A stretch of DNA of 64,000 bases from Aquila chrysaetos chrysaetos (taxonomy: Eukaryota; Chordata; Aves; Accipitriformes; Accipitridae): contig NC_044018.1 in assembly GCF_900496995.4 (NCBI RefSeq), positions 10,626,501 through 10,690,500 of the forward strand, written 5' to 3'. This document shows, one piece after another, positions 8,598 to 53,368 of this stretch; positions within the stretch are counted from its first letter, which is position 1; every line of letters begins with the position of its first letter. A program made the position numbers and the translations under genes. The notes beneath the pieces are model-generated. The model saw nothing but the letters and a program-made list of their open reading frames with translations, did no database searches and was not told the DNA's origin.

Positions 8598-10585
8598 TCA
8601 TATAGTTCATCTAGGTTATGTACACATGGCCTGCAGATCCTAGGCTTGAGGACCCACCCTCACAAACTATCTCACCCTAATCTGTCCTCTCTGGAGTTGC
8701 TTACCCAGCCATAGCAAGTTGCTCAGACTTTCTCCCCAGAGAGCGCTTCTCCCACACCTCCCTGCCTGCCCCAACCCAACCGATCCAGCTCAGCTCACCA
8801 GCCCGGCAGAGAAACCCCGGCTTCCCTGCAGCACTCGCTGGATGCTCCCAGCCGCACGCGGGACCGTACCTGCCCTTCCTGCTGGCTGACCAGCGCATGG
8901 AAACAGCGTGCGTGGCCCAGACACCTCCCTTTTAGTCAGGTAAAACTGGAGCGGGTGAATTCTCCCGGTGGGAATAGACCTGCGGTGGTGTGAGCCAGCC
9001 TGGTGGGAGGTGAGCAGGCAGCGGTGTTGGCAAAGCCCATATCACACGGCTTCACCCGCAAGCCCTTCCAGAGGGTGAGCATGACCCTTCTCAAGCAGTG
9101 GAGAGACGTCCGCTGGAGCTGCCTGTTTCTGCCTGCTGGCTCTAAAGGGACCTTGGACAATTAGCTTCCATGAGATATGTAACTTCAAGACTGCTGAAGT
9201 GAGCTGAAATCCTTCCTTCCCTTGGACTCCACATCTAAAGATGTCCACGAGGAGCTCCACAAGGTTTCAAAGAGACTCCTCCAGCAACAGATCTAAACCT
9301 TTCTTCAAAAGCTTCCTTGAGATAGATCCTTATCAGCTTCCTCTACCCCACCATCTCTGCTGGCTGCCTATCTGTGAAGAAGGCTTTGAGTTGCTGACCT
9401 GGAGCATCTGTATCTTCACACACAGACTGGGTTAGCCAGACCTGCAAACGGTTCTTTGGACCTGCAGGGGCAAATGGCTTGTCTTAGATAGATCTTTCAA
9501 GTCAGCTCAATGGATTATTAATGTGATTTCTATTTGTGAATAGATACTGTTATGGAACCAGCAAACCCAAAAAGAACTGGATTCACTAGTGCTACAGTCC
9601 ACTAAAATCTGAAAGATTAAACTGGGCATTTTTTCCTTTCTGAAGTCAAAGAATAAAATCTGTGAATGAATTAGTGACACTGATTCTAGCAAAATACTTG
9701 TGCACTTCCTCAAAGTACTTTTTTTTTCCTTATTGCAGTGTCCATTCTTTATTGAATTGCTAAAACAGACTTGCAACCTGTCCGACACACTGTAAGGCAA
9801 ATGGAGCTGAATTAAGTTATTGCTGCAAAACCAGAAAGCCATATAAGATGACATTGCTTCAAATTCTGCTCCCGCTCACACTCATGCAACTCCACTGTAA
9901 TATGCAGAGTTGCATGAGAGTTTAAAAAAAAAAAAAAAAAAAAAGGCAAAAACCATGCAGTTTAATTTCAATGAATAATGACCTTCCCTGGGTGGCTTCG
10001 TTTTCAGGCTGCCCAGATGAGACACCCCCACGCTGTCAGAGGGTCCAACCCACTCTCAGGGCGGGAGTGCAGAAGTGGTCTCCTCACTTGAACTGAGAAC
10101 GACGGAGACAAAGGGGGTCTTTCAGCGAGGCTTTTCTGCGTTTCCAGGACTTGCTGCTAAGGTTGCACTGGTTCATCATGGGACAAACTCCCCCGGTGGA
10201 GCTCTGGCTCTCGCCAGAACAAACACCTTTTGCAGAGGTTGAACTTGGTCTGAACAGAGTAAGGGAAGGCGCAACCTTTCCTCAGCTGGGGACATCTGTG
10301 CGGACGCAGCCAGGGAAGTCTCTGCGTGCCCAGCGGCGTGCACGGGGACTGTGAGGTGAGCTGGTTGTTGACCTTCCTTCGATGCTCTGACTAACTTGCT
10401 CCCTGTCACCTCTTCTCCGGTCAACACGGTACAGAAGACAGACTGGGACGCGACGAACACGAGCTAGTGGAGCGGATGAAGACAAGCAAGGGGAGGTCTG
10501 CATGAAACCAGCCCTTTGGCTGAATGTGCCCATGGGTCGTGGGCTGGCCCGCCCCGAGCTCGGGCCCCCGGCCGGCCGTGGCGGT
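8598..10585. other. Intergenic, no gene seen
   Basis: No gene is recognisable. The only repeat is a run of 21 A at 9,924-9,944, without recognisable retroposed sequence in front of it. Confidence 0.5.
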
Positions 10586-10984
10586 GGGCAGACCCTCCGT
10601 GTTAAACAACTTGGGCAGGCCCTCCGTGTTAAGCTTGGGCAGACCCTCCGTGTTAAGCAACTTGGGCAGACCCTCCGTGTTAAACAACTTGGGCAGACCC
10701 TCCGTGTTAAGCAACTTGGGCAGACCCTCCGTGTTAAACAACTTGGGCAGACCCTCCGTGTTAAGCTTGGGCAGACCCTCTGTGTTAAGCAACTTGGGCA
10801 GACCCTCCATGTTAAACAACTTGGGCAGACCCTCCGTGTTAAAATTGGGCAGACCCTCCGTGTTAAAACTTGGGCAGACCCTCCGTGTTAAACAACTTGG
10901 GCAGACCCTCCGTGTTAAACAACTTGGGCAGACCCTCCGTGTTAAGCTTGGGCAGACCCTCCATGTTAAAAAGCTTGGGCAGAC
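10586..10984 (+). repeat. 24/27-bp minisatellite array
   Basis: Fifteen full tandem units, then a broken sixteenth from 10,977. Each unit begins 'gggcagaccctccgtgttaa' and ends in 'acaactt', 'gcaactt' or 'gctt'. Ten units are 27 bp, four are 24 bp and one is 25 bp, summing to 391 bp. The 24-bp units lack one 'caa'. Unit types alternate in blocks, as expected for unequal exchange or slippage. Because nearly all units are multiples of three, both strands stay open for long stretches, giving repetitive pseudo-proteins that I do not regard as genes. Confidence 0.96.
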
Positions 10985-13266
10985 GCAGCTGTGGGGTGGA
11001 GCTGGTGGGTGCGACATCCTCGCACCGCAGCCGGGGCGGCCCCGGGGCGTCAGCCTGGCCGTGTCAGCACGGCTGAGTCAGGGAGGGTGGGACGAGCCAC
11101 TCCTCGTGTCCCCCTCCACCAAAGCGGCGACGCTAATGAGCAAGCGTAGCAAAAGGAGTTATGGCTCCCATCCCACCATCTGACCCTGACGGGTGGACTC
11201 CCACACGGTGATCTCACTCTGTCGGCTTACGCACAGCTTCACAAATAGCAGAGAAAGGTCACGCTCAGTTAAAACTGAAATGTGTTTTCTTGCAGCTTTT
11301 CCCCCTTGGGCCAGATGCTGTAGCCCTGACTTGGGCAAAGGTCCAATTGGAAATAATGAATGTAATTACCTTGTAAGCACCTTAGTGGAAAATATTGGTA
11401 TAGTTAATTATACAGGGATGCCATGCTAACCCATTTCCCAGTGTTTAAAATACAAATATTAACGCTTTCTCCTTTGGGGTTTTGAGAAGATTAGTTATTG
11501 CTGCAGTCTAACAGAATTTCTAAGTTTTGCAGCTATTGCAATCAGTTTAAGGAAAAAGTTTCCAGTGGTGACTTTAACAACACTGGCTGATGTTGCGCAG
11601 AACAGTGCTACGTTGCACAGAACCGGGCTTTCGATTGGCTTTGCAAGAATGAGGACTATGGCCGTGGCCCTTTAAACATCCAAAACTGAGATTTTTTTCA
11701 AAGGATGTCTTAGGACCAAAAAGTGAATTTAGGGTTCTCAAACTGAAGATAAGAGACTCACCCTTTGAATATCAGGAGAATTGAAATCCTTGGAGATGGA
11801 CACCCAAAACCTGAGACTCAGGTAGCTTTTAAGAAATCCTGGACAAATTGTCTAAGTGAAAATGCCACTATCTTTCATTAAAGATCATAGGAAACAGTGC
11901 AATAAACTCACAGCATGGACTAAGTGTGTACTCCAGCGTTTGAAGTCTTCAAAATGCAAACCCAGGTATTTCCACACTGTTTCTGACTGACTTTCCAGTT
12001 GCTGAATAAGGAGCCCACTATTTCTATGTTAGTCTGTCGAAAAAGCCCCATTGCTTTCAGTTGGCTGCTGGCAGAGCCCTCTGTGAACAAACAAGTGAAA
12101 GCCACTAAATATGTTTTACTTGCCTTGGTATTTGTTAACATCTCTGAACAATCCAGTACAGCCTAGGAGATATTCACAGTCTAGAAAAACAAAAGGCTCG
12201 ACTCCTTTCTCACGCCTTGGCAAAAGGAGTCAAAGGGCATTTACAAAAATATAAAACTGTCCTGAGATTTCCCTTATAGGTACCTAAAGGAGTTTTTCAG
12301 GAAAAAAAAAAGCAGGGGGGGGGGGGGGGGGGGGAGAAATCAGCACTTTGGGCATAGGCCTTATTGTTCAGCAAAAATCACGTAACACGTTTTGCACCGC
12401 TCTTCTGCCGGGAGCCGCTGCTGCAGGCAGCACCTGCAGGGCCTCACGCTCCGAGCGAGGGAAGAGGCAGGCATGATGTCCTGCTGGGGATCCCCGACAT
12501 GGAAAAGCCTAGACTTTTTACACTGCTGTGGGAATTAAGGAGGCCAGCAGTTAGGAAATCTAGCTAGGCAGCTTAGGAGACTGCTGCAGCACAAGCGTAG
12601 CCTCTTGCTTCTGACTCAACCCTGAGCAAAGCCCATCCACATGTCCTGCTGCAGCAAACGGGGGCACTCACTCCAAGCAAAGGGGACGTCACTAATAAAA
12701 ACTGCTTTTATCTAAGTATTTCACTAGAAAAATAAGCCCTGTTGCCTCTGCTACTTTCCAGTTTTCTGCCCGTTTTGTTACTACAGAAGCCCAAACTTCG
12801 CCCCAGCCACCGACAGCCAGCAAGGGCGAAGGGTGAAAGAGCACCCGGAGCCTGAGCCCAAGCTCACCACGTACCAGGCACAGAGGCTGCTTGTTCTCAG
12901 CAGCGACAAGGATGGATTAGTCACCACCTTGAATTTTGAGTACACTTCCACATGCAATCTGTATAGAAAAATTAAGGAAGCAGCTCCCCCAAAGGACAAT
13001 AAAACCACCATCATCTGAAAGCTGCCAGACAGGTATTTCTGCCAGTGGAGAAAATACAGCTAGAAGCATTTGCAGGCAGGGGGCAAACTCTGGTCCGGTT
13101 CAACACCATCCAGGTGTACTGTTGCAAGCTGAGGACAGCCTCCGTAAATCACAACACATCTCTCAGGTGTCAGCATAGAATCTTTTAATACTTTACATAA
13201 AAAACTGCATACACAGTTCATAATTTTATGTAAACATCATATACATCTCAGTTTTTGCCATGTCAG
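10985..13266. other. Intergenic downstream of RHOB, no gene seen
   Basis: No coding exon or known element is recognised. The sequence contains a homopolymer G run (12,315-12,334). It lies beyond the most distal candidate poly(A) signal of RHOB. Confidence 0.5.
12315..12334 (+). repeat. Poly(G) run
   Basis: Twenty consecutive G residues follow an A run. Such tracts are hard to sequence, so the true length may differ. Confidence 0.9.
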
Positions 13267-14682: not shown

Positions 14683-15273
14683 CTATAGGACTTTGCAGCA
14701 GTTGATGCAGCCGTTCTGGGTGCCGTAGCGCTTCTGCAAGGCTGCCCGGGTGGCGGTCTCGAAGACCTCCCGGACGCCTTCCTTGGTCTTGGCCGAGCAC
14801 TCCAGGTAGTCGTAGGCCTGGATGCGAATGGCCATGGCGCGGCCATCCTCGGTGCGCACCGGCTCCTGCTTCATGCGGGCCAGCTCGTTGCGCACGTGCT
14901 CGTCGTTGCGCAGGTCTTTCTTGTTGGCCACCAGGATGATGGGGACGTTGGGGCAGAAGTGCTTGACTTCGGGCACCCACTTCTCCGGGATGTTCTCCAG
15001 CGAGTCCGGGCTGTCCACAGAGAAGCACATGAGGATCACGTCGGTGTCTGGGTAGGAAAGGGGCCGCAGGCGGTCGTAGTCCTCCTGGCCGGCCGTGTCC
15101 CACAGGGCCAGCTCCACCTGCTTGCCATCCACCTCGATGTCGGCCACGTAGTTCTCGAAGACGGTGGGCACGTAGACCTCGGGGAACTCATCCTTGCTGA
15201 AGACGATGAGGAGGCAAGTCTTACCGCAGGCACCGTCCCCCACCACCACCAGCTTCTTGCGGATGGCGGCCAT
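14683..15273 (-). CDS. RHOB: Rho-related GTP-binding protein RhoB
   Basis: Single-exon ORF of 196 codons, the normal RhoB length. RhoB is a GTP/GDP switch on endosomes and plasma membrane that controls actin, vesicle traffic and stress responses. Visible motifs: P-loop GDGACGKT (residues 12-19), switch I with Tyr34, Thr37 and Phe39, WDTAGQE (58-64) with catalytic Gln63, NKKD (117-120), ECSAK near residue 160, and the tail CINCCKVL. In that tail Cys193 is the prenylated CaaX cysteine, and Cys189 and Cys192 are the palmitoylation sites that distinguish RhoB from RhoA and RhoC. The start at 15,273 gives the invariant MAAIRKKL; an upstream in-frame ATG would add 34 non-conserved residues. Lack of introns is normal for RHOB. 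The gene lies in a CpG island with its promoter to the right. The tail cysteines make RhoA or RhoC unlikely. Confidence 0.98.
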
Positions 15274-16060: not shown

Positions 16061-17074
16061 GCTTAAAGCCCGAGGAAAGGGGAGCCGAGGTGACTGCAGG
16101 CGGTTAAATAAAACAAAAGCGTTGGCTGGGTGTTACTGGGAAAACGCAGGACTCCAGCACTTCCCTTCCTTAAAGGAAAAAATTCATCATGTTTTGAGTC
16201 TCTCTCCTGCCAGCTCTCGGCCAAAAGGGAACAGAGGAATTACAAACCGGGAGAAGTAGAAGGCTTGAACTGAAATGCCCCTTTGGTCTCAATTTACGGA
16301 GACATCGGAAGTCACGGGAATGAAAAAATGAACGTGGAAATAAAGGAGCGCAAAAGGCTGGAGTTTCACATTGCTTGGAGGGTAGGGTGTAAGTACCTTA
16401 ATAGAAACAGATGGCTCACGCTGGCTGCGTTAATAAAGCTGTGCATCGTAAAGTCTCACACTGTGAAATTAGTGGTAGCGATTCCCTACGTCCCTGTTGC
16501 AGCTATCGCTGTCTAACTGGGTGTTGTCTCGAGCCTTTTCCCTGCAAGCATTTTCACCTAAACGATGTCCTGTGGCTCCCGCTTCTCGGGATTGGATCCA
16601 AAGTGTCCTCTCTTGCTAGCCAGCACTGGCATTAGTGAATAGAACAAAAATGAGTGATTTGGACAATATGGTTGTTATTAAAAATTGTACTTTCGAATAC
16701 CCACTTGAAGACCAAGTGCATCAGTGAGTACATCAAATTGCCTGACGGGTAACTTGCAGCAGACTGTTACAGAAGTGTGTGTCAATAGGGCAAACGGTTC
16801 ACTTAATCCTAGACATTGAAATATACTTAACCCTCTGTGAGATTTTTGCAATTCCCATTTCTCCCTGTCAGAAGAGCATGTCCCCGGATGGCAATGGATG
16901 GATTTGTTCTTTGATCTCACATAGTTTGTACGGTGTATCTTTCGTGAAGCGAATATAATAAATTCAAACTGGTGTTTGAAAAACCCCAGAAATAAAGTGT
17001 AGACATAGGCACCGGTGTTCCACAGTACCCGTGGCCCTTTAGCAGGCTAAATTGGCGGTATCCCTTTACCTCTG
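16061..17074. other. Spacer between two CpG-rich blocks
   Basis: Non-island sequence without recognisable gene or repeat. It may contain distal RHOB promoter elements, but none is called. Confidence 0.4.
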
Positions 17075-17600
17075 ACCGCTCACGGGTTTAAATTCTCCCC
17101 GACACGAAAGCAAGCTGACGATGTGGCGCGTCCTTGCGGCGGTGGAGCGTCGGCAGCGTGCAGCTATTTTCTCTACGGATAGACTCGCAACTCCGTGGAG
17201 CCGTTCTGCTCGGCAGGCGGAGTCAATCTGCCGTAGAAAGTAACTCGCCCCACGCCACCGCGCCGCTCCACGCCCCGCGAGCGCTCCCGCGGTGCCGCGG
17301 GCGGCCGGCGGGGTTTGGGCTGGAGCCCACTGCCACCTCGCGGCCGGCCCGCCGGCGGGGACCCCGGCGCCCGCACGGCTCCCAAACGGGAGCGCTCCAC
17401 CTCGGGGGTGGCAGCGGGAAAAGCTGCATCGATCGTCAGGGGTGCTGCTTCGGCGTGCGCCGGAGTCCGTCTTTATTTGGCTTTGGGGGGGGGGGGTGCG
17501 CGGAGAATCGTGCCTGGATACTTGGGTTTGTCTTTTCGTGAGCAAGACGGTTCGTTAAATAGAAAAAGGAATCGGGCACGTGAGCGGGTTTGTCGCTCGT
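17075..17600. promoter_or_regulatory. Second CpG-rich block, possible promoter
   Basis: CpG becomes dense again from about 17,075 to 17,600, separated from the RHOB island by about 1 kb of ordinary sequence. Open frames here on both strands are composition artefacts with no family match. The block lies between the head-to-head RHOB and Rho-like genes, so it could be an additional RHOB enhancer or promoter, a non-coding RNA promoter, or the first exon and promoter of the Rho-like gene starting at 21.7 kb. Only the composition is seen; the role is inferred. Confidence 0.55.
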
Positions 17601-20282
17601 GTCACCGGTGCCGTGCCATGAAAGGCAGGGAAATAGCCTGCGTACTCATCTCAAAGCACACAGCTCTTGTTCACCCAGAGTGCTGCTAGCATTTACCCGT
17701 GCGCCTCGGTGTAGAGAAAGCAAAGCGACCCACATGGGTACTCTTTTTTCAGACTTCAAAGTGGGGTGGCCTCATCCCAGCTGTCTACCGGTCCCAACTT
17801 CCAAACTGTGCTAAGGAAATACTCTACAAAGGTCCAACTAACCCAAGTCAAACCCATAGCAGGGACTCTTCTTGTAATTGAACAGTGCAGATATAGTTCC
17901 AGCACGCAGTGAGGGTCTGAGCCATAACTGCTGCTTAATTTTCTAGTGAAGTCTTGCATCTGTCGCCTTCCACACAGTTACACTAAAGGCAAAGGGCCTG
18001 ATGTTTCATCTCGCACTTTGCAAGAAAGACTGCAGCAAAGTCTGTGTAATTCCTTGACCTAGGGTTTCAAATGCTTTATATGTTTTTTCCAGAGGCTTTG
18101 TATCAGGGGACCCAGCCCTGTGACTCACTTAGGCTGAGATTGCACTCATTTCACTGTCCTAGGGTATACTCCAGCAGTGGACTCTATCAGGAACATCTAT
18201 GTCACTATGGTTATCACACATTTATGCTTAAATGTGTAGTACCTGGGACTTGATCACGGCCTGGGTTTCATACTTAATGTAAATTTGCTACATGCCACCT
18301 CTCTGCTGCAGTGGGTTAGCTCATAAATACCAGTGCACTATATAGTACCTTCCCTGAGCTGTCTAAGTGGAAGTGAGGAGGCTCTTAATTTATGTTATCT
18401 TTCCAGTTATATATATTTGCTTCTCTTCTCTGGAGCATTCTTTCTTCAGCCCATGCATGAAAGCATAAAGTGAGCCAGTTTCAAGAACAGTGGAAATCAG
18501 GGATAGAGTTGTACATAGAAGTCCTTTTCTCTTCCTGCTTGGATCGAGGCATCAGGGAAAATGGGAATCTGACCAGCGTGGCAGTGCTGTGAGTGCAGCA
18601 GACAGAGGCACGGCAGCGGTACTATAAACGAGCACAGTGGACAATAATCTGTGGAAGTGCTTCCTTCTTGGGATGGTGCCTGAGAGCACAGGTGGAAAAC
18701 CTGGAAGGAAAATAGTGAAAAGAGGCTCTGGGATGTCACAGCTTTTTCCTCTCCTTAGGGCATTTTGTACAGGACCGATTCTGTATTGAAGCATGGTTGT
18801 GGTCTGGACGACACCAGGGAGTGTAGCCAGCTCACATATTTTAGGGCTGAATTTGAACTTTATATTGGAACTTTTATATTTTCTGATCAAATTTGCACGA
18901 AGCTGAAACTTCACTTCCAGTAATCCCTAAATGTGCACTCTCTAAGCAGAGCATTAGTTCTGCTGCACCACTTACATCTGTGTGATTGATGAAGAAAGTA
19001 TGAAGTAGGAGAAAGAAGACACCACTTCTTTGCTTTCATTGCTTGTACTGGTGGTTTTGAGATTAAAACTCAGCCTTTTGTTTTTTACTTGATTTAATCC
19101 AATTGGCATTTTTTGTTGCTGAGAAGACAATTCTAGTCAATTACTAGACATTGTTTCCAGATTATATTCCCCCCCTGCTCTTTTTGCTAAACAGATCTTC
19201 TAAAGGGCATGTCTGTAACTCAGAGAATTTGTGTTCAAGCATAAATCTGTACCAAAAGCGTGAAAACTCAGTGGGGAAGGTAATCTTTCTTCTTTTTGTC
19301 AATAAGTAGGCAAGTAAGTACATTGCCTGCTGTGGCATAACGTGCTGAGGGAGCCATAAGTGCCAGTAATGGCATACTGAGTCCTGTAACGCTAGCAGCA
19401 AGCATCCTGCAGTCCTCATGCAGGCAAAGCTTCTCAGTGAAGTAAGGAAAGCAAGAGCTAGCTAAATATGAGCAGTTCACAGGCTAGTGTGAAAAAGCTC
19501 TACGTAGATGTGGGAGGACAGGCAGAAATGCTAAGTATCTGTTTCTCTAAGCTGCTAAGAGTTTCTGGCGTATATAGGAACCAGGCCACTTGTTGCGTGT
19601 CACAGCAGGTCCGTTGCTTTCCAGTGTCCCTGAAGAAAAACAGAATTTAACTCTCAGATCCCCTTGTGATCAGTACTCTCAGCAGACAAGCCAGACTGAT
19701 CTACCTAGAAACCAGAACGCCAAGACACAAAAAAGAGAAGGTGAAAAAAGACCTGTGTATCTTCATAGAGAGGTTTGGGCTAAGTACAGTGCATGTGAAA
19801 GTGCCTCATCCCAAACAAGAAATGCCTTCATGATCCTAAAGAGCTCTGTGGGGCCCACTGGCATTGCTCTTCTAGGGAGTAAGTGGGGCAAGTCAGAAGC
19901 TGATGGCTTTAATTTTGTCAAGTTCCTACGGCAAGCCTATCGGATTCATACTTGAATAAGACTCGGGAAATATGGCCTAACAGAGTAAAATTAGACCACC
20001 ACAGAAAACTAAAGCAGCCTCAGGTCTCCAGCTGACTTCAAATCAAACAAAAACAAGTTCCTCATCCTTAGGCTAAAATTTTTAGATCTAAAAACACTCA
20101 TCTTAGTTGAAGAACTCTTCTGTAGCAGAATGAAATAAATGGGCTGACCATGTAACTATACTAATCAGCAGCTACATAACTGCATCACCAATAATGCCTC
20201 TCTCTGCAGAGACCAAATTAATCTGCCTCTGGTTCCCTTTGTTCTCATTTTTTAGTGGTTGCAGGCACCTTGCAGTCTTTGT
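17601..20282. other. Intergenic, no gene seen
   Basis: Ordinary AT-moderate sequence with no coding or repeat signature recognised. Confidence 0.5.
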
Positions 20283-20439: not shown

Positions 20440-20620
20440 ACTTTGAGGATGATCAAACTCTGGCACAGGCTGCCCAGAGAGGCTGTGGAGTCTCCATCCT
20501 TGGAGATATTCAAAACCCAAGTGGACACAGTCCTGAGCCGCCTGCTGGGGTTGATCCTGCTCCGATCAGGGCAGGGTGGACTAGATGACCCCTTCCCACC
20601 TCATCCATTCTTTGATTGGG
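20440..20620 (+). mobile_element. CR1 LINE 3' end
   Basis: One frame reads LWHRLPREAVESPSLEIFKT, the carboxy-terminal signature of CR1 ORF2. It is followed by CR1 3'UTR text (cagggtggactagatgacc) and a degraded terminal 'attctttgatt'. It is in plus orientation and strongly 5'-truncated. Confidence 0.92.
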
Positions 20621-21245: not shown

Positions 21246-21726
21246 CCATTGGTAGAATTCCACTAGCAGACCATGGCAGGAAAAATGTAGTCGGTAAAGT
21301 CGATTTGCATAGTTGTTCAGTACAGTGTTTTATACTCCATCTCACTCACAAAATTAAGTCATTCAATCCAGAAAATGAAGTCTGTTATGGACTGAACACT
21401 GACCATAAACAATGTCTGAGATGATAAAACAGAAATATAAGGCGCTGCAAGAGTCTTGGTTACATCCAGACTTGGTTTATGCCTTCATTTTTTGATCTAT
21501 AATAATAGTCAAGAGCAAGGTACTCACAATTTCAGAAGATTCTGATACCACAGAAATTAAAAGCGGAAAAAAAATAGGGAACAAAGGTAAGACAGAGTGT
21601 GGAGAGAAAAAAGGAGATAAGGAGAAGAATTCCAAACTAATGGAATTTCTCCTCTCCTCCTTCTACCCTGCACAAAAGCTAAAAAAAAGAAAAAAAAAGC
21701 CCAGCATGGAAATAATCCATTTTGTA

Positions 21727-21747
21727 CTTCATCTTCGTTTTCAAGGA
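21727..21747 (+). promoter_or_regulatory. Possible 3' splice site just before the Rho-like start codon
   Basis: A pyrimidine-rich stretch ending TTTTCAAG leaves only two bases before the ATG at 21,748. If used, a 5'UTR intron would join a remote first exon to the ORF. It is moderate as an acceptor and unproven. Confidence 0.3.
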
Positions 21748-22341
21748 ATGGCTGCTCTTAGGAGAAAGCTAACTGTAGTTGGAGATGACTGCTGTGGTAA
21801 GACGTGCCTCCTCTTTGCTCTGTGTCACGAGCAGCTTCCCAAGACCTACGAGCCAACTCTGTTTGACGCTTACACCACTGACACAGAAGTAGATGGGAAA
21901 GAGATGAAACTAATCCTCTTCGATGTGGCAGGGAAGAATGAAGTCAGTTACCGAAATCTCCGCTCAGTGTTCTACGAGGACACCGACATTATTTTAATGT
22001 GCTTCTCTGTGGACAGGCATGACTCACAGCAAAACATCCTTGATTTTTGGATTCCAGAAATCAAAGTGTTCTGCCCCACAGTACCTATTATTCTGGTGGC
22101 TACCAAGACAGAACTAAGGGGCGATGAAGGTATTAAGAAGAAACTAACTTCTCCAGGCAATGAGCCAATTAGCACTACAGAAGGAAAAGCTTTAGCTGCC
22201 AGCATTGGGGCATATGCTTATCTGGAGTGTTCTGCCAAGACAAAAGAAGGTATTGATACAGCTCTGGAGATTATTAGCCAATGCGCATTAAATGAGAAAA
22301 GGAGGAGAAAGAGGCACTACAGGCGCTGCCAAATTTTGTAA
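21748..22341 (+). CDS. Atypical Rho-family GTPase, RhoB/RhoA-like, intact single-exon ORF
   Basis: This 197-codon ORF begins MAALRRKL like RhoA/B and by eye shares roughly half its residues with the neighbouring RHOB. Kept: GxxxxGKT P-loop (GDDCCGKT, 12-19), switch I Tyr34/Thr37/Phe39, DxxG (DVAG, 59-62), ECSAK (160-164) and a CaaX box CQIL (Cys194), preceded by a basic tail RRRKRHYRR. Changed: Gly14 to Asp and Ala15 to Cys in the P-loop; the Trp58-Asp-Thr60 region to Phe-Asp-Val; catalytic Gln63 to Lys; two extra residues in switch II; NKxD to TKTE (119-122). The family-conserved Kozak-like start (G at -3, G at +4) is chosen over in-frame ATGs at 21,640 and 21,706. Known Rho biochemistry predicts a membrane-bound, geranylgeranylated protein with little GTP hydrolysis and altered nucleotide affinity, as in Rnd proteins. 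It could instead be a young pseudogene with an intact frame. Confidence 0.85.
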   Translation: MAALRRKLTVVGDDCCGKTCLLFALCHEQLPKTYEPTLFDAYTTDTEVDGKEMKLILFDVAGKNEVSYRNLRSVFYEDTDIILMCFSVDRHDSQQNILDFWIPEIKVFCPTVPIILVATKTELRGDEGIKKKLTSPGNEPISTTEGKALAASIGAYAYLECSAKTKEGIDTALEIISQCALNEKRRRKRHYRRCQIL

Positions 22342-23969
22342 GAGGAGTGAATATTATTTTGTTGTTGGATTTCATCCTGTGGAAAGGTAAGTAGATGTCT
22401 TTGTTGCTGTTGTGTGGGTGCTATAAAGGCTGCTTTTATAGGAGAAAAAAAATCCCTTATATCTGCAAAGTGTCACACTTGAAAAGTTGAATTTGTTTCC
22501 TTCTCCACCTCCAAAACAGGCTGAAGAGCACAATTCCAGATTTGAGCTGAGTACTGGTCTTGAGAAATGGAAATGACCAAGCTACAGTTCTCCACAGAGG
22601 TTTTTTGGTCAAGGGAGATACACACAGACTAGGACAGGCACCTAAACCAGCACTGTTGGGACAAGCACAAAAACATGTTGCTCAGTGAATCTAATCCCGG
22701 CTTCCTGGTAGCAAGGCTGAGTGGCAAGCAGCTGTGCCAACAAGGCTTCCTAGTACGCGCTCCCTTCCATACACTTCCTTGAAGGACGTTCTTAGGGAAG
22801 GGTGTCACCACGCACATATCCAATAGTCTGCTGTGCTAAATGCGGTGGGTTTCTGACTGACTGGCAGAACAGGTCTGACTTTCTCTAGGATTTATTCGCA
22901 GAGCTGGCCTGGGCTTGGTTCCATAAATGCATCAGGAATGCAACGTATAGCATAGGGTATACAATGAAGGCAGTGCTATCTCCACCTCTTCTTCAGGTAC
23001 AGGTAAACAAACTGGGGTAAAACAGCCTGGCTCTGGGGTAGGATAATCCAGTTCTTGATAGAATTCCTACCTTAAAAGTAGAGAAGTAAAAAGTCCAGAC
23101 TTCAGTTTCTAAACCTCTTTGTCCTTATGGTCTGAATGTATCTTAAATCTTTCTGTCTTTCCTTAGCACTTGCAGGCAGAAGACATGAAGTAAAGGGAAT
23201 GCCAACAACCATGCTCTCAGCTTTGCAAGTCATTAACAATCTGGAAAGAGACTGAGAAATCCTGTCAACCTAAGCAGAAAATCTCAGAGAGGCACAGAGA
23301 TGGACCAAAATGGAAGGACTTTGGGTGCATCTCCACACTACTCCTTTCTGTGAAGCACTGATTGCTGGCAGCCCAAGGAACTGAGTTATGGACTGACATT
23401 AAAGGCACAGGTCTGGAAGCGGACAAATAATGTGACTTCAGGATTTGAAGACACATGCTGTAACACAGCGGACAGAGAAACATTTCAAGATAAACCCCTT
23501 CTGATCCTGAAGTAAAGGTACAGGGCTAATTGAGCATAACCGTCATGAACTGCGAGAACATGGAAGTCTATCACTTTCTTTTGCTGACTTCCTTGGTGTT
23601 GGTTTCATCACTCTGGCAGCTCAGTTGCAGTTTCCCAGGGGGAAACAAAATAAGAATAAGCATAAATTTTTAAACCGATTATGCCACCTGGAGCTGTACA
23701 CTTAGCAAGCCAGCTTTTCCAGGTGAAAGACCTAGTAAAATACACACTTGATTTTTTTCTTACCCATTCTTCCCACCAGTATTTGTCTATTGATGGTATC
23801 ACGGGTAGAAATACTGGGGTTGGCCAAGTATTCATGACTGGATGGGTTGCTGCTTTCCTTCTACATCACTTTTTAGTAACAGTTTTTAAGTCCACAATCA
23901 CACTGTGGCATAATAACAAATGCTTCAAAGACGACACTTTACATTTCCAAAAGTACCTTTCTTCATAGA
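22342..23969. other. Downstream of the Rho-like gene, no further gene seen
   Basis: It presumably includes the 3'UTR of the Rho-like gene. No AATAAA-terminated 3' end was assigned. No other coding exon or recognisable repeat was seen. Confidence 0.4.
22383..22392 (+). promoter_or_regulatory. Strong 5' splice site match 45 nt after the Rho-like stop
   Basis: AAAG|GTAAGT is a near-perfect vertebrate donor. The exon would end at 22,386, 45 nt past the stop codon, which is inside the 50-55 nt limit that normally spares a message from nonsense-mediated decay. Use is not shown. Confidence 0.3.
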
Positions 23970-31933: not shown

Positions 31934-32556
31934 TCATAGAACAGTTTGGGTTGGAAGGGACCTTTAAAGATCATCTGGTCCAACCCCCCTGCAATGAGCA
32001 GGGGCATCTTCAACTAGACCAGTTTGCTCAGAGCCCCGTCCAACCTGACCTTGAATGTTTCCAGGGATGGGGCATCTGCCACCTCTCTGGGCAACCTGTT
32101 CCAGTATTTCACCACCCTCATCATAAAACATTTCTTCCTTATACCTAGTCTGAATCTACCCTCTTTTAGTTTAAAACCATTACCCCTTGTCCTGTTGCAA
32201 CAGGCCCTGGTAAAAAGTTTGTCCCCACCTTTTTTATAAGCCCCCTTTAAGTACTGAAAGGCCGCAGCAAAGTGTCCCCAGAGCCTTCTCTCCTCCGGGC
32301 TGAACAACCCCAACTCTCTCAGCCTTTCTCCATAGGAGAGGTGTTCCATCCCTCTGATCATCTCTGTGTCCCTCCTCTGGACCCAATCCAACAGGTCCAC
32401 GTCTTTCCTGTGCTGAGAACTCCACAGCTGGACGCAGGACTGCAGGGGGGGTCTCACCCGAGCGGAGCAGAGGGGCAGAATCCCCTCCCTCGACCTGCTG
32501 GCCACGCTGCTTTTGATGCAGCCCAGGATACGGTTGGCTTTCTGAAGTGGGGTGAG
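31934..32556 (-). mobile_element. CR1 LINE, ORF2 C-terminus plus 3' end
   Basis: In minus orientation the frame is open from about 32,556 to 32,014. It reads the classic CR1 ORF2 end: ANRILGCIKSSVASRSRE, MIRGMEHLSYGERLRELGLF, FQYLKGAYKKGG, RTRGNGFKLKEGRFRLGIRK and YWNRLPREVADAPSLETFK. The 3'UTR follows to the terminal 'agaatcatagaa' form at 31,934. An uninterrupted frame of about 180 codons makes this the youngest CR1 in the window. It is 5'-truncated. Confidence 0.95.
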
Positions 32557-43139: not shown

Positions 43140-43373
43140 TCAGTTTGCATCCCTGGTGGTTGGAGCAACTTCCAGGAGCAACTGGAGATGTAAAGTGACT
43201 CTCTGTAAAAAGCGAGGGTGGCGTTTGAAGTGAACCAGTGGGAAATAAAGAATGATGCCACTGAAGATGAACAGGACGATGTAGAGGATCTCAGTTTGGG
43301 GTTGATCAATGATGGGAGCTACCACCAGGTACACAGCTGCCATCAGCACAATTATGGGGATGATAATTGGGAC
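43140..43373 (-). CDS. SLC7A15: SLC7A15-like coding exon 6 (last)
   Basis: The acceptor is TTTCACAG|GTC. It encodes [20 protein letters not shown], the next membrane pair ([16 protein letters not shown]) and a cytosolic tail ending [13 protein letters not shown]. That tail matches the conserved MHLQMLMEVVP tail of b0,+AT, which is needed for exit from the ER. The stop codon ends at 43,140. Confidence 0.9.
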   Translation of the reverse strand, partial: VPIIIPIIVLMAAVYLVVAPIIDQPQTEILYIVLFIFSGIILYFPLVHFKRHPRFLQRVTLHLQLLLEVAPTTRDAN

Positions 43374-46300
43374 CTGTGAAAGCAAAACATCAACGTAAAG
43401 ACTCATGTCATCCTGGGCCACTGTGGGCCTGAACAACCCTGAAGGTTCTGAAGAAGGCTTTTTAGATGAAACCCTGCTGCAGCCTGAGGTATTACCTAGA
43501 AATCTCAATTAATCCAGACATCCCATTTCCCAGCCCAGTCCTACTCCAAGGTTGAACATCCCTGCAAGAGCTACACCACTACCACACACCCTAAACCCTG
43601 GTCTTCCCTGCCCTCCTAGACCTGAAGATGCAAACTACTGGTTTTAGTGCCAGGTCTGTTCTTGCTCTCCCTACTACCTTGCATCCAAAAGCTGAGCTGT
43701 AGACGAAATACACAGCAAAGTGTCCAAATCACATAACGGAACTTTAGCACCCTTGGGCAAAAAGGTTTATTTATGTGTTGACAGATAGGTGGACAGGCAA
43801 TCTCAGAGGCTATTTCTGCAAGTCTGGTCAGAAAGCATTTAAATTTAAATTTGAAGCCATCCTCCCACAACGGCTAGTGAACGCACAAGAAAAACCAATT
43901 TCACAACAAGGTGAAAAACTGAACATTCAAGCTGGAATTTTCCATTTTTTACTTTTGTGCGTTTTATCCAACACAAGGGCACTGGTATAGACCAAAGGAA
44001 ATGTTGTTCATGGTTACCTGGGAGAGCATGGAGAAGACCTGCTGTTGGTTTCATCTATGTTAGTGGGATGCTCTACTCTGCTCCCTGTCCACTGTGTTCT
44101 AACACTTTTGGCAAAATGCTAATAAAAATGATTGTTTTCAAACCGAAGGAAATCTTTCCCTTAAATATAAACCTGCAACACACATACAGATTCTGCAGGA
44201 CATCAGCCATACATTGTCAGTTGACCTGGAACCTTCAGACATGGGCTGCTTCTAGTTAAGGAGTTAGGCCATCAAGCCAAAGGCTGCAGCAGGCTGACAT
44301 CTCACAGGACTGGCCTGGAGGACTGTGGGAGTTCTGTACGGTGTATGAAACACTACTGCAGAAACAGAACTTCTTTTCCTTAAAGCCCATTTAGCCAACA
44401 AATTGGACGAACGTCCTCATCCAGCATCCTAATTTCAGGACAGTCACAGAAGCCAGTGACTGGAATTCTTAATAGAGCACTGCTCTTCTTCACGCTAAGC
44501 CCCACAGGACACTCGATATTGCTTCGCACAGCCTGGCAGTGTCAGCCTGTCATCTATCTCCTGGAGGAACTCCATAAAAACCAGGATGTTCATTCAGTTT
44601 GTCTCAAGGAAAAGCCACTGTCCTGCATTCACAGTCTCACGGGTCCCCTGTTCCTGGGATCTTTTCTGTAAAAATATTTCCCTCAGTCACTGAGGAAGCG
44701 CTGCAGCTCAACTCATTCATGGCACCAGGGGGAAGAACAGGTAACTCCTGATTTCCTCCCACTTAGCTGTTTTGTGGGGAACAAACCTGTCCCCTGGCCA
44801 TCTCAAAGGACATGGGGCATTCTGGCTAGGTTTTTTGTCCTCTGTAAGGTTCTTACACCTGGGCTACCCTCTAAGGAGTGTGACCAAGCTCTGTGAACAT
44901 AAACAGGTGATTGCATTGTTGATCAGAATCATCCTTCATTTTCCTCTTAAATCTCTTAGAAAAAAAGAGGATATGGTAGATATATTTTCCACAGTGAGGG
45001 GACAGTGCATTATTAGCTTATCAAGACAGAGAATTCAACCTTGACTTATGCTGTATATTCACACTATCTTGCCTCTTGTGGACTTTACTGAGATAAAACA
45101 TGAAATTCAAAAAGGAAGGGCAACCACACTAAACCTGTAAGCAACGAGCCTCAGTGCTCTTTCGTCCCTCATAATGCTCTCTTAGTCATTTAGGCAATAT
45201 AGGAAAAGGGTTTGAAGGTTTTATGTTATTACTTCACCTTGTAAGATCTTGGCAGTTCTGGTTTCTTGATTTTTAAATACAGGAGACCAGAAATAGTCAT
45301 GCCATAGAAAAGCCATGCTATAAAACTGCAAGGAAAAAAAAAAGGCAGCATTACATTTAGGGTGAGATCATCCAGGAATGTCAGGCCTGCCTTGCAGATC
45401 CCAGATGTTCATATCTCCAATTAAAAAGTAGAATATTGATATAAATTCAGTAGTTCTTCCATTCATTTCTTTTCCAGCACAAACAATGAGAACTTTAGAA
45501 TGATCTGAATATTATAGATGCATTGCAATATGGGGATGAATCACATTCAGTTAGGTATATAGTGACAGAAGCGTTCATGCATTGCAAAGATGCTGGTTCC
45601 TAATAGGTTCCATCCTAATTTCTTTCTCCCCCTCTCCCCTCCACAATATTGGTTAGAAAGCAATAGCCCAGGCTCAGAAAAATATTGGAAGAAAATACTT
45701 CTAAAACAATGTCAAAAACCAGGAGCACAGGGGATGCAAACAGAAACACTACGCATACATACCTGAAAAAGTTCACGATACTGGTGAAGCTTCCTGACAT
45801 TATCATTATTAAAGACATAGCGGATGTAAACAGCAGAGCAGGGGAGGGCGTGAGGCATCGCACATGAGCCATAGACAGAATGTCTGGCTGAAAGCCAAAG
45901 CAAAACAATATACCATCATATCATGTACTCGGAGATCCTTACTCATCCCCCTCAGCTGCTGGTGGGAGCTCTGCCTGCAGCAGAGCCACTCTTAATCATC
46001 AAATAAGCATAATACAAAAGCAGTTCAGCTCCAAGGAGTGTAAACATGGAAACCTCCCTCAAGGATATTTTTATTGTGTCTCACTGATTTTGTACCAAAT
46101 AAGCTCAGTTTAGACAGGCAAGATGAGGTTTTCAAACTACTAGTGTGACAGACCAAGGCTGAGTCAAATCAGAGCTTTCCTGATCATCATCAGGATTTTG
46201 CGCGTGGTCCCACTCCTCTACCCTCCGTCACGTCTCTCTGGGACTTGAATTCTCTTGGGCTGGCTGGAAAATGAGACAAGGACTACTCCTGAAACATTTA

Positions 46301-52300: not shown

Positions 52301-53368
52301 GTCTACAGTGAGATCCCCTAACCACTAAGACAAAACTTCATCCCCAAAGCACGCAAGTGCTGCCTAATAGCTTTCTTCCAGTCAATGGGGTATTTTAGTG
52401 CTTTCTTGTAGGTAGGCTGTTATTTTGCTTAGAGACTCATTTTTATCCTTTCTGGACACAACCATAGGTGTCTTGCCCCAGAAGACAGAACAAACCAGGT
52501 GGAAATCTCAGTAGTCTTTCCTCAATGCTCTAATCCTTTGATTACCCCTCTTAACACAATCACAGATAGAATCACACATATTAGCAGCAGGATTAAGTAA
52601 GTAAAACCCAGCTCCCTCACTCACCTCAGGCTTCTTCAGTTCCTCAGTTACATAGTTCAGGTTGTTCCACCCATCGTAGGACCAGAGTCCCTGGTAAAAT
52701 GCCACTCCAACTGCCCCGATACCTGCAGTTGTGTTTTGAAAAGCATTTTGAAAACTCTGAGTTTGTCCGTTGGCAAGCAGCACCAATCCGCCCACCACAA
52801 TCACCAACAAAGCCAAGAGTTTGGCAGCTGTAAAAATGTTCATAATAGACGTCGCCAGCCTCACATTGAGACAGTTGATGATAGTTAAAAGCAGGATGCA
52901 GGCAGCAGCTGTACATTTGATGACAACCTGCGGAGATGAGCATCCTGGGTAGAACGGCGCAACAGCGTATTCAGCAAAGCTCAGACAGACAGCTGCCAAA
53001 CCAGCTGGTCTCACCAGGATAACAGAAGTGTAGGCGAAAAGAAAAGCAGGAAAAGAACCAAAAATCCTCAAGATGTAAATATATTCTCCTCCAGACTCTT
53101 TAATTATGGTTCCAAGCTCAGCGTATGACAAGGCTCCAAACGTGGCCAGGAGACCACACGCTGCCCAGATAAGCAGGCTGCTGGCAGGGCTCCCCATACG
53201 ATGTAGTACCCACTCAGGGGACATAAAGATCCCCGAGCCTATCATGGTGCCTGCGATTAATGACACTCCGCTAATCAGGCCAACCTCTTGCTTCAGTCTT
53301 AATTTCTCCTTCCCTTCACTCAGATCTGTGGATGAATGAGGTGAATCTGTTGTCTTCCTTTTCCTCAT
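43140..53368 (-). CDS. SLC7A15: SLC7 light-subunit amino acid transporter, SLC7A15 (ArpAT)/SLC7A9-like, six coding exons
   Basis: Coding exons join(53,368-52,625; 51,065-50,932; 48,055-47,926; 45,887-45,763; 45,325-45,238; 43,373-43,140) make 1,455 nt, 484 residues plus stop. All introns are GT-AG, with phases 0,2,0,2,0. The product aligns end to end with b0,+AT (SLC7A9, 487 aa): TM1 motif GSGIF (44-48), extracellular Cys143 that would form the disulfide to a heavy chain (rBAT or 4F2hc), the aromatic gate [17 protein letters not shown] (228-244), and twelve expected membrane segments. It should be a sodium-independent amino-acid exchanger at the plasma membrane. Position beside RHOB suggests SLC7A15, known from mouse as ArpAT (aromatic amino acids, L-DOPA) and remembered as a pseudogene in human 2p24. 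Residue resemblance alone does not exclude another SLC7A9 paralogue. The first 248 residues lie in one exon, unlike human SLC7A9. Confidence 0.9.
45238..45325 (-). CDS. SLC7A15: SLC7A15-like coding exon 5
   Basis: It is 88 nt, with acceptor CTTGCAG|T and donor AAG|GTGAAG. It encodes [20 protein letters not shown] and KPELPRSYK, matching FAAWLFYGLTILGLIVMR plus the following basic loop of SLC7A9. Confidence 0.88.
45763..45887 (-). CDS. SLC7A15: SLC7A15-like coding exon 4
   Basis: It is 125 nt, with acceptor GGCTTTCAG|CCA and donor CAG|GTATGT. It encodes [20 protein letters not shown] then [21 protein letters not shown], matching the SLC7A9 stretch from [20 protein letters not shown] to SLVNYF. 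Confidence 0.9.
46405..46424 (+). repeat. Poly(T) run
   Basis: Twenty T residues inside intron 3 of the transporter gene; it could be the tail of an unrecognised reverse-oriented insertion or a plain homopolymer. Confidence 0.9.
46850..47340 (+). mobile_element. LTR-like interspersed repeat, copy B
   Basis: It lies in intron 3 of the transporter gene, antisense to it. It shares with copy A (27.5-28.0 kb, opposite strand) an ordered series of blocks: gatccaggggc, a TA-rich stretch, ctgatcagccagagagg, gatgaggccctcggtgctgt, then a TG/TA-rich part and gggaatacatgct. Copy B has an expanded TA/TG microsatellite (about 47,165-47,245). No internal coding region is associated, so a solo LTR or other terminal-type repeat is likely. 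Family unknown, ends uncertain. Confidence 0.45.
47926..48055 (-). CDS. SLC7A15: SLC7A15-like coding exon 3
   Basis: It is 130 nt, with acceptor CACCTCAG|G and donor ATG|GTAAGG. It encodes [20 protein letters not shown] then [23 protein letters not shown]. This matches the SLC7A9 helix with [20 protein letters not shown] and the GREGHM boundary, where SLC7A9 is also spliced as far as I recall. Confidence 0.92.
50932..51065 (-). CDS. SLC7A15: SLC7A15-like coding exon 2
   Basis: It is 134 nt, with acceptor CTTTTCCAG|GTG and donor GG|GTGAGC. It encodes [20 protein letters not shown] then [25 protein letters not shown]. This matches [20 protein letters not shown] and [22 protein letters not shown] of SLC7A9. 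Confidence 0.92.
52625..53368 (-). CDS. SLC7A15: SLC7A15-like coding exon 1
   Basis: It is 744 nt and encodes residues 1-248 without interruption: a basic N-terminus, six membrane segments, GSGIF at 44-48, SGGEY at 92-96, PFYPGC with Cys143, and TEELKKPE at the donor GAG|GTGAGT. The ATG is chosen because it gives a tail of about 28 residues before TM1, comparable with SLC7A9, and no upstream in-frame ATG precedes it. Upstream untranslated exons were not identified; a TGAGTCA (AP-1-type) site lies at 53,419-53,425. Confidence 0.93.

Follow-up and report, generated by a model that had tools for sequence, protein, structure and literature searches.

The neighbourhood of RHOB in Aquila chrysaetos chrysaetos contains, 6.5 kb from RHOB and on the opposite strand, a second uninterrupted Rho-like reading frame in which positions central to GTP hydrolysis are altered. 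This raises the question whether the frame is a working gene or a relic and, if it works, from which Rho gene it descends and what kind of GTPase it encodes. In humans, eight subgroups make up a Rho family of 20 members, among which RHOA, RHOB and RHOC count as classical (excerpt of PMC9029563). Judged from sequence, the frame is most likely a working gene and not a relic. Our preferred reading, to which we assign a probability of about 0.6, is that the intronless RHOB gave rise long ago to an inverted tandem copy, that the frame is the coding exon of this copy, and that its product has been retained as a GTPase-deficient Rho protein that evolves fast but works.

A Rho reading frame beside RHOB

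In the stretch of DNA analysed (64,000 nucleotides; hereafter the window), the frame (hereafter the ORF), RHOB and the sequence between them are placed as follows.

14683..15273, minus strand: RHOB, 196 aa, coding frame intact and uninterrupted, inverted relative to the ORF (translation and alignment)
17001..17750, no strand: second CpG island between RHOB and the ORF, GC 0.64-0.67, CpG observed/expected about 1.05, no gene assigned
21748..22341, plus strand: the ORF, a divergent RHOB-like Rho protein of 197 aa plus TAA (translation; Pfam Ras; PDB Rho matches; one full genome match)

Translation of 21748-22341 gives 197 amino acids free of stops, followed by TAA. From composition alone an open frame of 197 codons has a p of about 6e-6, so that the ORF is more than chance, and homology settles the matter: it matches Pfam Ras (E 3.9e-35; RHOB, 9.1e-54), the top matches of a PDB search were RhoB, RhoA and RhoC, and 98 of 195 aligned residues are identical to those of RHOB, in line with the earlier estimate that about half of the residues had changed. 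The hallmarks of the Rho family are present, i.e., a Ras-type G domain, the Rho insert region (gap-free against RHOA across residues 122-137) and a C-terminal CaaX box, CQIL. Structure prediction was uninformative (pLDDT 39.6 for the ORF and 40.0 for the RHOB control).

A genome-wide match search with the ORF (1.234 Gb in 144 contigs; one genome) returned the ORF itself as the sole full match among the 28 matches listed, followed by RHOB with 52 percent (best candidates scored). The ORF is distinct from the RHOA, RHOC, RHOG, RHOG-like, RHOH and RHOU/RHOV-type loci of the same genome. RHOA (L009) and RHOC (L010) were recognised because their exons match the human proteins with 91 to 100 percent identity; the other loci are those that we take to be RHOG (L004), RHOG-like (L003), RHOH (L005) and RHOU/RHOV-type exons (L006, L007). 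The second RHOG-like frame besides RHOG (L003:1432-2022, minus strand; G000:C19) is open from the first beta strand onwards and closes with CVLL and a stop codon. As expected of an animal gene, no relative was found in viral contigs scanned with the ORF and likewise with RHOB, nor in bacterial and archaeal genomes scanned with RHOB only.

The ORF (plus strand) sits between RHOB and a transporter frame on the minus strand (52508-53368). The latter matches AA_permease_2 (PF13520; E 7.6e-35) and probably belongs to a transporter gene of SLC7 type; 43140-43508, which has no Pfam match, may be another exon. The window also contains a minisatellite-like repeat (10421-11183) with several open frames on each strand, which encode repetitive peptides, and a dispersed repeat in two copies of opposite orientation (20444-20513 and 32051-32120; 76 percent alike over 70 nt), the peptide of which we presume to be the 3' end of CR1. 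An Rfam scan of the window at gathering scores gave no match.

Altered catalytic and nucleotide-contacting positions

The motifs of the encoded protein, all on the plus strand, are the following.

21781..21804, plus strand: P-loop GDDCCGKT, with G14D and A15C; K18 and T19 kept (translation, alignment)
21829..21879, plus strand: switch I, with F30L, E40D and N41A; Y34, T37, F39 and Y42 kept (translation, alignment)
21922..21966, plus strand: switch II DVAGKNEVSYRNLRS, with T60V, Q63K, two added residues, D67R, R68N and P71S (translation, alignment)
22102..22113, plus strand: TKTE, base-recognition motif (alignment)
22225..22239, plus strand: ECSAK motif (translation)
22327..22338, plus strand: CQIL prenylation box after a polybasic tail (translation)

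Translation and alignment bear out the original prediction both in what it listed as kept (197 codons, the MAAxR start, GDDCCGKT, Thr37, ECSAK, CQIL) and in the changes it emphasised (Gly14 to Asp, Gln63 to Lys, two extra residues in switch II). It had not mentioned F30L, T60V, N41A, R68N, D40, F58 and the splice-site matches on both sides of the ORF. Altogether, G12, D13, G17, K18, T19, Y34, T37, F39, Y42, D59, A61 and G62 are kept, as are Y66, L69, K118, SAK and the CaaX box, and the changes comprise G14D, A15C, F30L, N41A, W58F, T60V, Q63K, R68N, D120E and the two switch II additions. E40D introduces the residue of RAC1, CDC42 and RHOG, and W58F that of CDC42. The argument built on TKTE stands for D120E, which alone in this motif is unusual among the references compared, but not for T117, which is common to RAC1, CDC42, RHOG and RHOH; TKTE as a whole was therefore rejected as a sign of lost nucleotide binding. 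The tail of the ORF (KRRRKRHYRRCQIL) lacks the two extra cysteines of RHOB. CQIL is presumably a geranylgeranyl-type box; we take N41 to be the RhoA residue modified by C3 exoenzyme, and R68 to be a RhoGDI contact.

In Ras numbering, the ORF has D at position 12 and K at position 61 and keeps A at position 59 (Rho 14, 63 and 61). These non-consensus residues at 12 and 61 place it by sequence with the GTPase-deficient atypical Rho proteins, and D14 and K63 place it outside the fast-cycling group, which is classical at 12, 59 and 61. In the excerpted text of PMC9029563, changes at Ras positions 12, 59 and 61 are the reason why RND, RHOH and RHOBTB are GTPase-deficient and do not respond to GAPs, GEFs and GDIs, and fast-cycling members keep these three positions; RAC1 F28L is fast-cycling through weaker base contact, and RHOU/V have Tyr where Phe packs on guanine. 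Through F30L the ORF resembles RHOU/RHOV and the RAC1 F28L mutant in the loss of this guanine-packing Phe (same excerpt of PMC9029563). Unlike the fast-cycling proteins, it thus combines both kinds of change, D14 and K63 not being classical.

Like RND1/RND3, the ORF has both Ras 12 and 61 (Rho 14 and 63) replaced and N68 in place of R68, but the replacing residues differ (D14 and K63, where RND and RHOH have S or V), Ala61 is kept, and the proteins stand apart in the tree. It differs from RHOH in keeping the full insert region and Y42, and the locus that we recognise as RHOH (L005) is separate in the genome. Shared with RHOH are the replacement of positions 14 and 63 and the one-exon coding layout, which is predicted for the ORF; in RHOH a single exon holds the coding region, and the exons 5' of it are non-coding (excerpt of PMC2565660). 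With RHOB, finally, the ORF has in common the start, the insert region, the uninterrupted frame, six RHOB-type residues and the neighbouring position; it departs from RHOB in half of its residues, in the loss of Gly14 and of the GTPase glutamine, in the two added switch II residues, in the absence of the extra tail cysteines together with a polybasic tail, and in the splice-site matches on both sides.

The protein would be expected to fold as a Rho protein with insert region, to retain nucleotide binding (with Mg) through G12, K18, T19, T37, D59, G62, K118 and SAK, and to reach the plasma membrane by its polybasic tail and CQIL. GTP hydrolysis and the response to GAPs would be lost through G14D, Q63K and the reshaped switch II, the tight hold on guanine through F30L and D120E, and the RhoGDI contact through R68N. 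From the predicted loss of hydrolysis and GAP response and the predicted looser hold on guanine we infer spontaneous and lasting loading with GTP, with transcription as the means of control, as in RND and RHOH. With its partly kept effector loop, the protein would engage some of the Rho effectors or compete for them. The constitutively loaded or regulatory Rho protein of the original prediction is plausible on these grounds.

The same substitutions might, alternatively, go further. D120E, F30L, T60V and the switch II insertion could together abolish stable nucleotide binding and leave a pseudo-GTPase, or dominant-interfering Rho protein, that holds GEFs or effectors; the guanine-contact and switch changes are cumulative, and none of the references used deviates at T60 or D120. 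We regard this as unlikely, since a protein that does not bind nucleotide would have little use for K18, T19, T37, D59, G62, K118 and SAK, all of which are kept, and the change from D to E is conservative.

Proposed gene structure

The candidate splice sites around the ORF are listed below (slashes mark the exon boundary and the ATG).

21726..21745, plus strand: candidate splice acceptor ttttcaag/ga/ATG, AG ending 2 nt before the ATG (score 9.1)
21746..22386, plus strand: proposed exon holding the whole reading frame (acceptor and donor scores only)
22384..22392, plus strand: candidate splice donor AAG/GTAAGT, intron from 22387; the window's sole site scoring at least 12.4 on either strand
22977..23175, plus strand: candidate acceptors of a 3' untranslated exon, AG ending at 22996 and 23175 (scores 12.8 and 11.7)

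With the exon ends of RHOA and RHOC of this genome as controls (donors 3.5 to 11.6, acceptors 7.2 to 14.7), the scoring tables proved working, if imprecise. Acceptors scoring at least 9.1 number 71 on the plus strand of the 64-kb window, which corresponds to about 0.001 at a fixed place, the place here having been chosen after the ORF was seen. The ORF likely fills one exon. Its stop codon is separated from the donor junction by 45 nt of exon; nonsense-mediated decay usually follows a 50-55 nt rule, so the stop would lie too near the junction to trigger it. In the proposed transcript, a non-coding first exon would be spliced to the coding exon and this to a 3' untranslated exon; the first exon may lie in the CpG island at 17 kb. 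That the island at 17001-17750 is the promoter and first exon of the ORF is a guess, and a donor search within it singled out no convincing site.

Probable descent from RHOB

Among RHOB, RHOA and RHOC of the same genome, the ORF looks like a paralogue of RHOB. Amino-acid sites pairing the ORF with one of the three divide 6 to 0 to 0 in favour of RHOB (two of the six RHOB-type sites, 86 and 146, also occur in fly Rho1 and may be ancestral), sites at codon positions 1+2 divide 8 to 1 to 2 in the same order, and the codon likelihood is better by 16.5 lnL if the ORF is paired with RHOB. In the protein tree the ORF groups with RHOA/B/C at 88/94, apart from RND1/RND3 and on a very long branch (1.48); RHOB is its sister with weak support (50/26), and AU tests reject none of five alternatives, including a position with RND (p 0.19; 3.6 lnL worse) or with RAC/CDC42 (p 0.30).

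RHOB is reported to be an early vertebrate retrogene (excerpt of PMC5803294, citing Sakai 2007). The simplest history would be an inverted tandem duplication of this retrogene. Given the retrogene origin, simple descent leaves the acceptor at -2 unexplained, and it may be a coincidence; otherwise it could have been regained, or inherited via a retrocopied transcript that retained the end of intron 1.

This acceptor is the starting point of another possible history, in which RHOA or RHOC gave rise to the ORF through incomplete processing, the end of the 5' untranslated intron being retained in the copy, and the position near RHOB is accidental. In the same genome, RHOA (gtttttcag/ct/ATG) and RHOC (ccccacag/cg/ATG) have an acceptor at exactly the distance found in the ORF, 2 nt before the ATG, unlike RHOB, which has none at -2; RHOG has an acceptor-like site about 21 nt upstream of the ATG (by eye). 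The polybasic tail of the ORF is closer to that of RHOC, its Q29 and E143 match RHOA/C, and third codon positions favour RHOA (RHOB:RHOA:RHOC, 13 to 20 to 4), with which the ORF shares a GC3 of 0.45. The AU tests keep RHOA (p 0.35) and RHOC (p 0.41) as sister of the protein. Against this stand the amino-acid sites, codon positions 1+2 and the codon likelihood given above, all of which side with RHOB, and the fact that the ORF adjoins RHOB. We consider descent from RHOA or RHOC rather improbable.

Fourfold-site differences between the ORF and RHOB (34/46) are similar to those between RHOA and RHOB (46/65). With this saturation, and with the caveat of RHOB's GC3 shift, the duplication that separated the ORF from RHOB looks old; relatives in other species are then to be expected, and a restriction of the gene to this lineage becomes doubtful.

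Constraint on the reading frame

The original prediction had argued that a neutral pseudogene so diverged would carry stops or frameshifts. Simulations of neutral decay, in which RHOB was evolved to the identity level of the ORF (about 50 percent) and stop-free runs were counted, agree: none of the runs from two ancestors (0/300 and 0/300, i.e., 0/600) and 13/2000 over four mutation settings remained stop-free. At an assumed rate of one indel to 20 substitutions, neutral decay should also have brought eight to nine frameshifts; the ORF has none, and its two added codons are in frame.

A second line is the distribution of the changes. The ORF agrees with RHOB at 69/117 sites invariant in six Rho-subfamily references versus 28/74 variable sites (p 0.005), a gap that is partly due to RHOB's own change, as this falls in the variable class. 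Retention is higher at sites that do not vary across all ten Rho-family references than at those invariant in the Rho subfamily alone (39/51 versus 30/66; Fisher p 0.0012), which argues for constraint because neutral decay is blind to these classes. The accepted residues provide a third line: of the 76 residues private to the ORF (absent from seven Rho-subfamily references), 25 are used at the same position by other Rho proteins (Rac1, Cdc42, RhoG, RhoG-like protein, RhoH, Rnd1 or Rnd3), compared with a shuffle mean of 14.4 and with values as high in 9/5000 shuffles.

Finally, a branch codon model (RHOA, RHOB, RHOC and the ORF; 175 codons) rejects an omega of 1 on the ORF branch (lnL -1730.35 versus -1723.98, 2dlnL 12.7, p 0.0004), a weak line with an unreliable omega estimate, as dS is saturated and several branch lengths are at their bounds; base composition differs as well (GC3 0.45 in the ORF and 0.92 in RHOB). 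Pairwise dN between the ORF and RHOB is 0.40-0.43, and dS is undefined or 27 (saturated). The ORF has 20.2 CpG per kb, compared with 8.3 in each 1.2-kb flank. An excess of fourfold-site differences over a one-lineage neutral simulation was discarded, as RHOB's synonymous change and GC3 shift could cause it.

These four lines, not all independent, say that the ORF was probably constrained at least for most of its history. Together with the predicted gene structure, they support the earlier view of a functional rather than a neutral sequence; neither stops or frameshifts nor neutral patterns of change, as a pseudogene should display, were seen.

The gene could still have worked for most of its history and have died no more than a few million years ago, too recently for a stop or frameshift to have appeared. 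One genome cannot date a relaxation of this kind, many Rho-subfamily invariants and catalytic positions are altered, and neutral decay to only 75 percent identity left 296/2000 runs stop-free. Nevertheless, a recent and traceless event would be needed, as the frame, the start, the splice-site matches and the CaaX box are all intact, and we hold a recent death to be decidedly improbable. That the ORF is a neutral RHOB relic (retrocopy or tandem pseudogene) open by luck is barely credible, despite its fast evolution and lost catalytic residues, in view of the stop-free counts at full divergence, which leave frameshifts uncounted, the constraint pattern and the window's best donor at the exon end.

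Implications for the Rho family

Among the titles listed by searches of open-access full texts, none describes a GTPase-dead Rho gene beside RHOB; the gene may be annotated or described elsewhere, for instance in subscription journals or gene databases. The preferred reading, i.e., a constrained and GTPase-deficient duplicate of RHOB, would make the ORF an atypical Rho protein, an already known kind in a new form. A more far-reaching version, which we put forward tentatively and rate at somewhat short of even odds, is that it is an old Rho gene beyond the 20 human members, retained next to RHOB in sauropsids but absent from mammals. Its product, otherwise derived from RHOB, would by nature be both hydrolysis-dead (Ras 12 and 61) and fast-exchanging (Ras 28), a self-loading antagonist of RHOB that is either permanently active or sequesters effectors.

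If true, a GTPase-dead gene adjoining RHOB would constitute a natural experiment on a non-cycling Rho protein, and the route taken by RND and RHOH would have arisen again from another branch of the family. It would also bear on how work on RHOB in birds is to be read.
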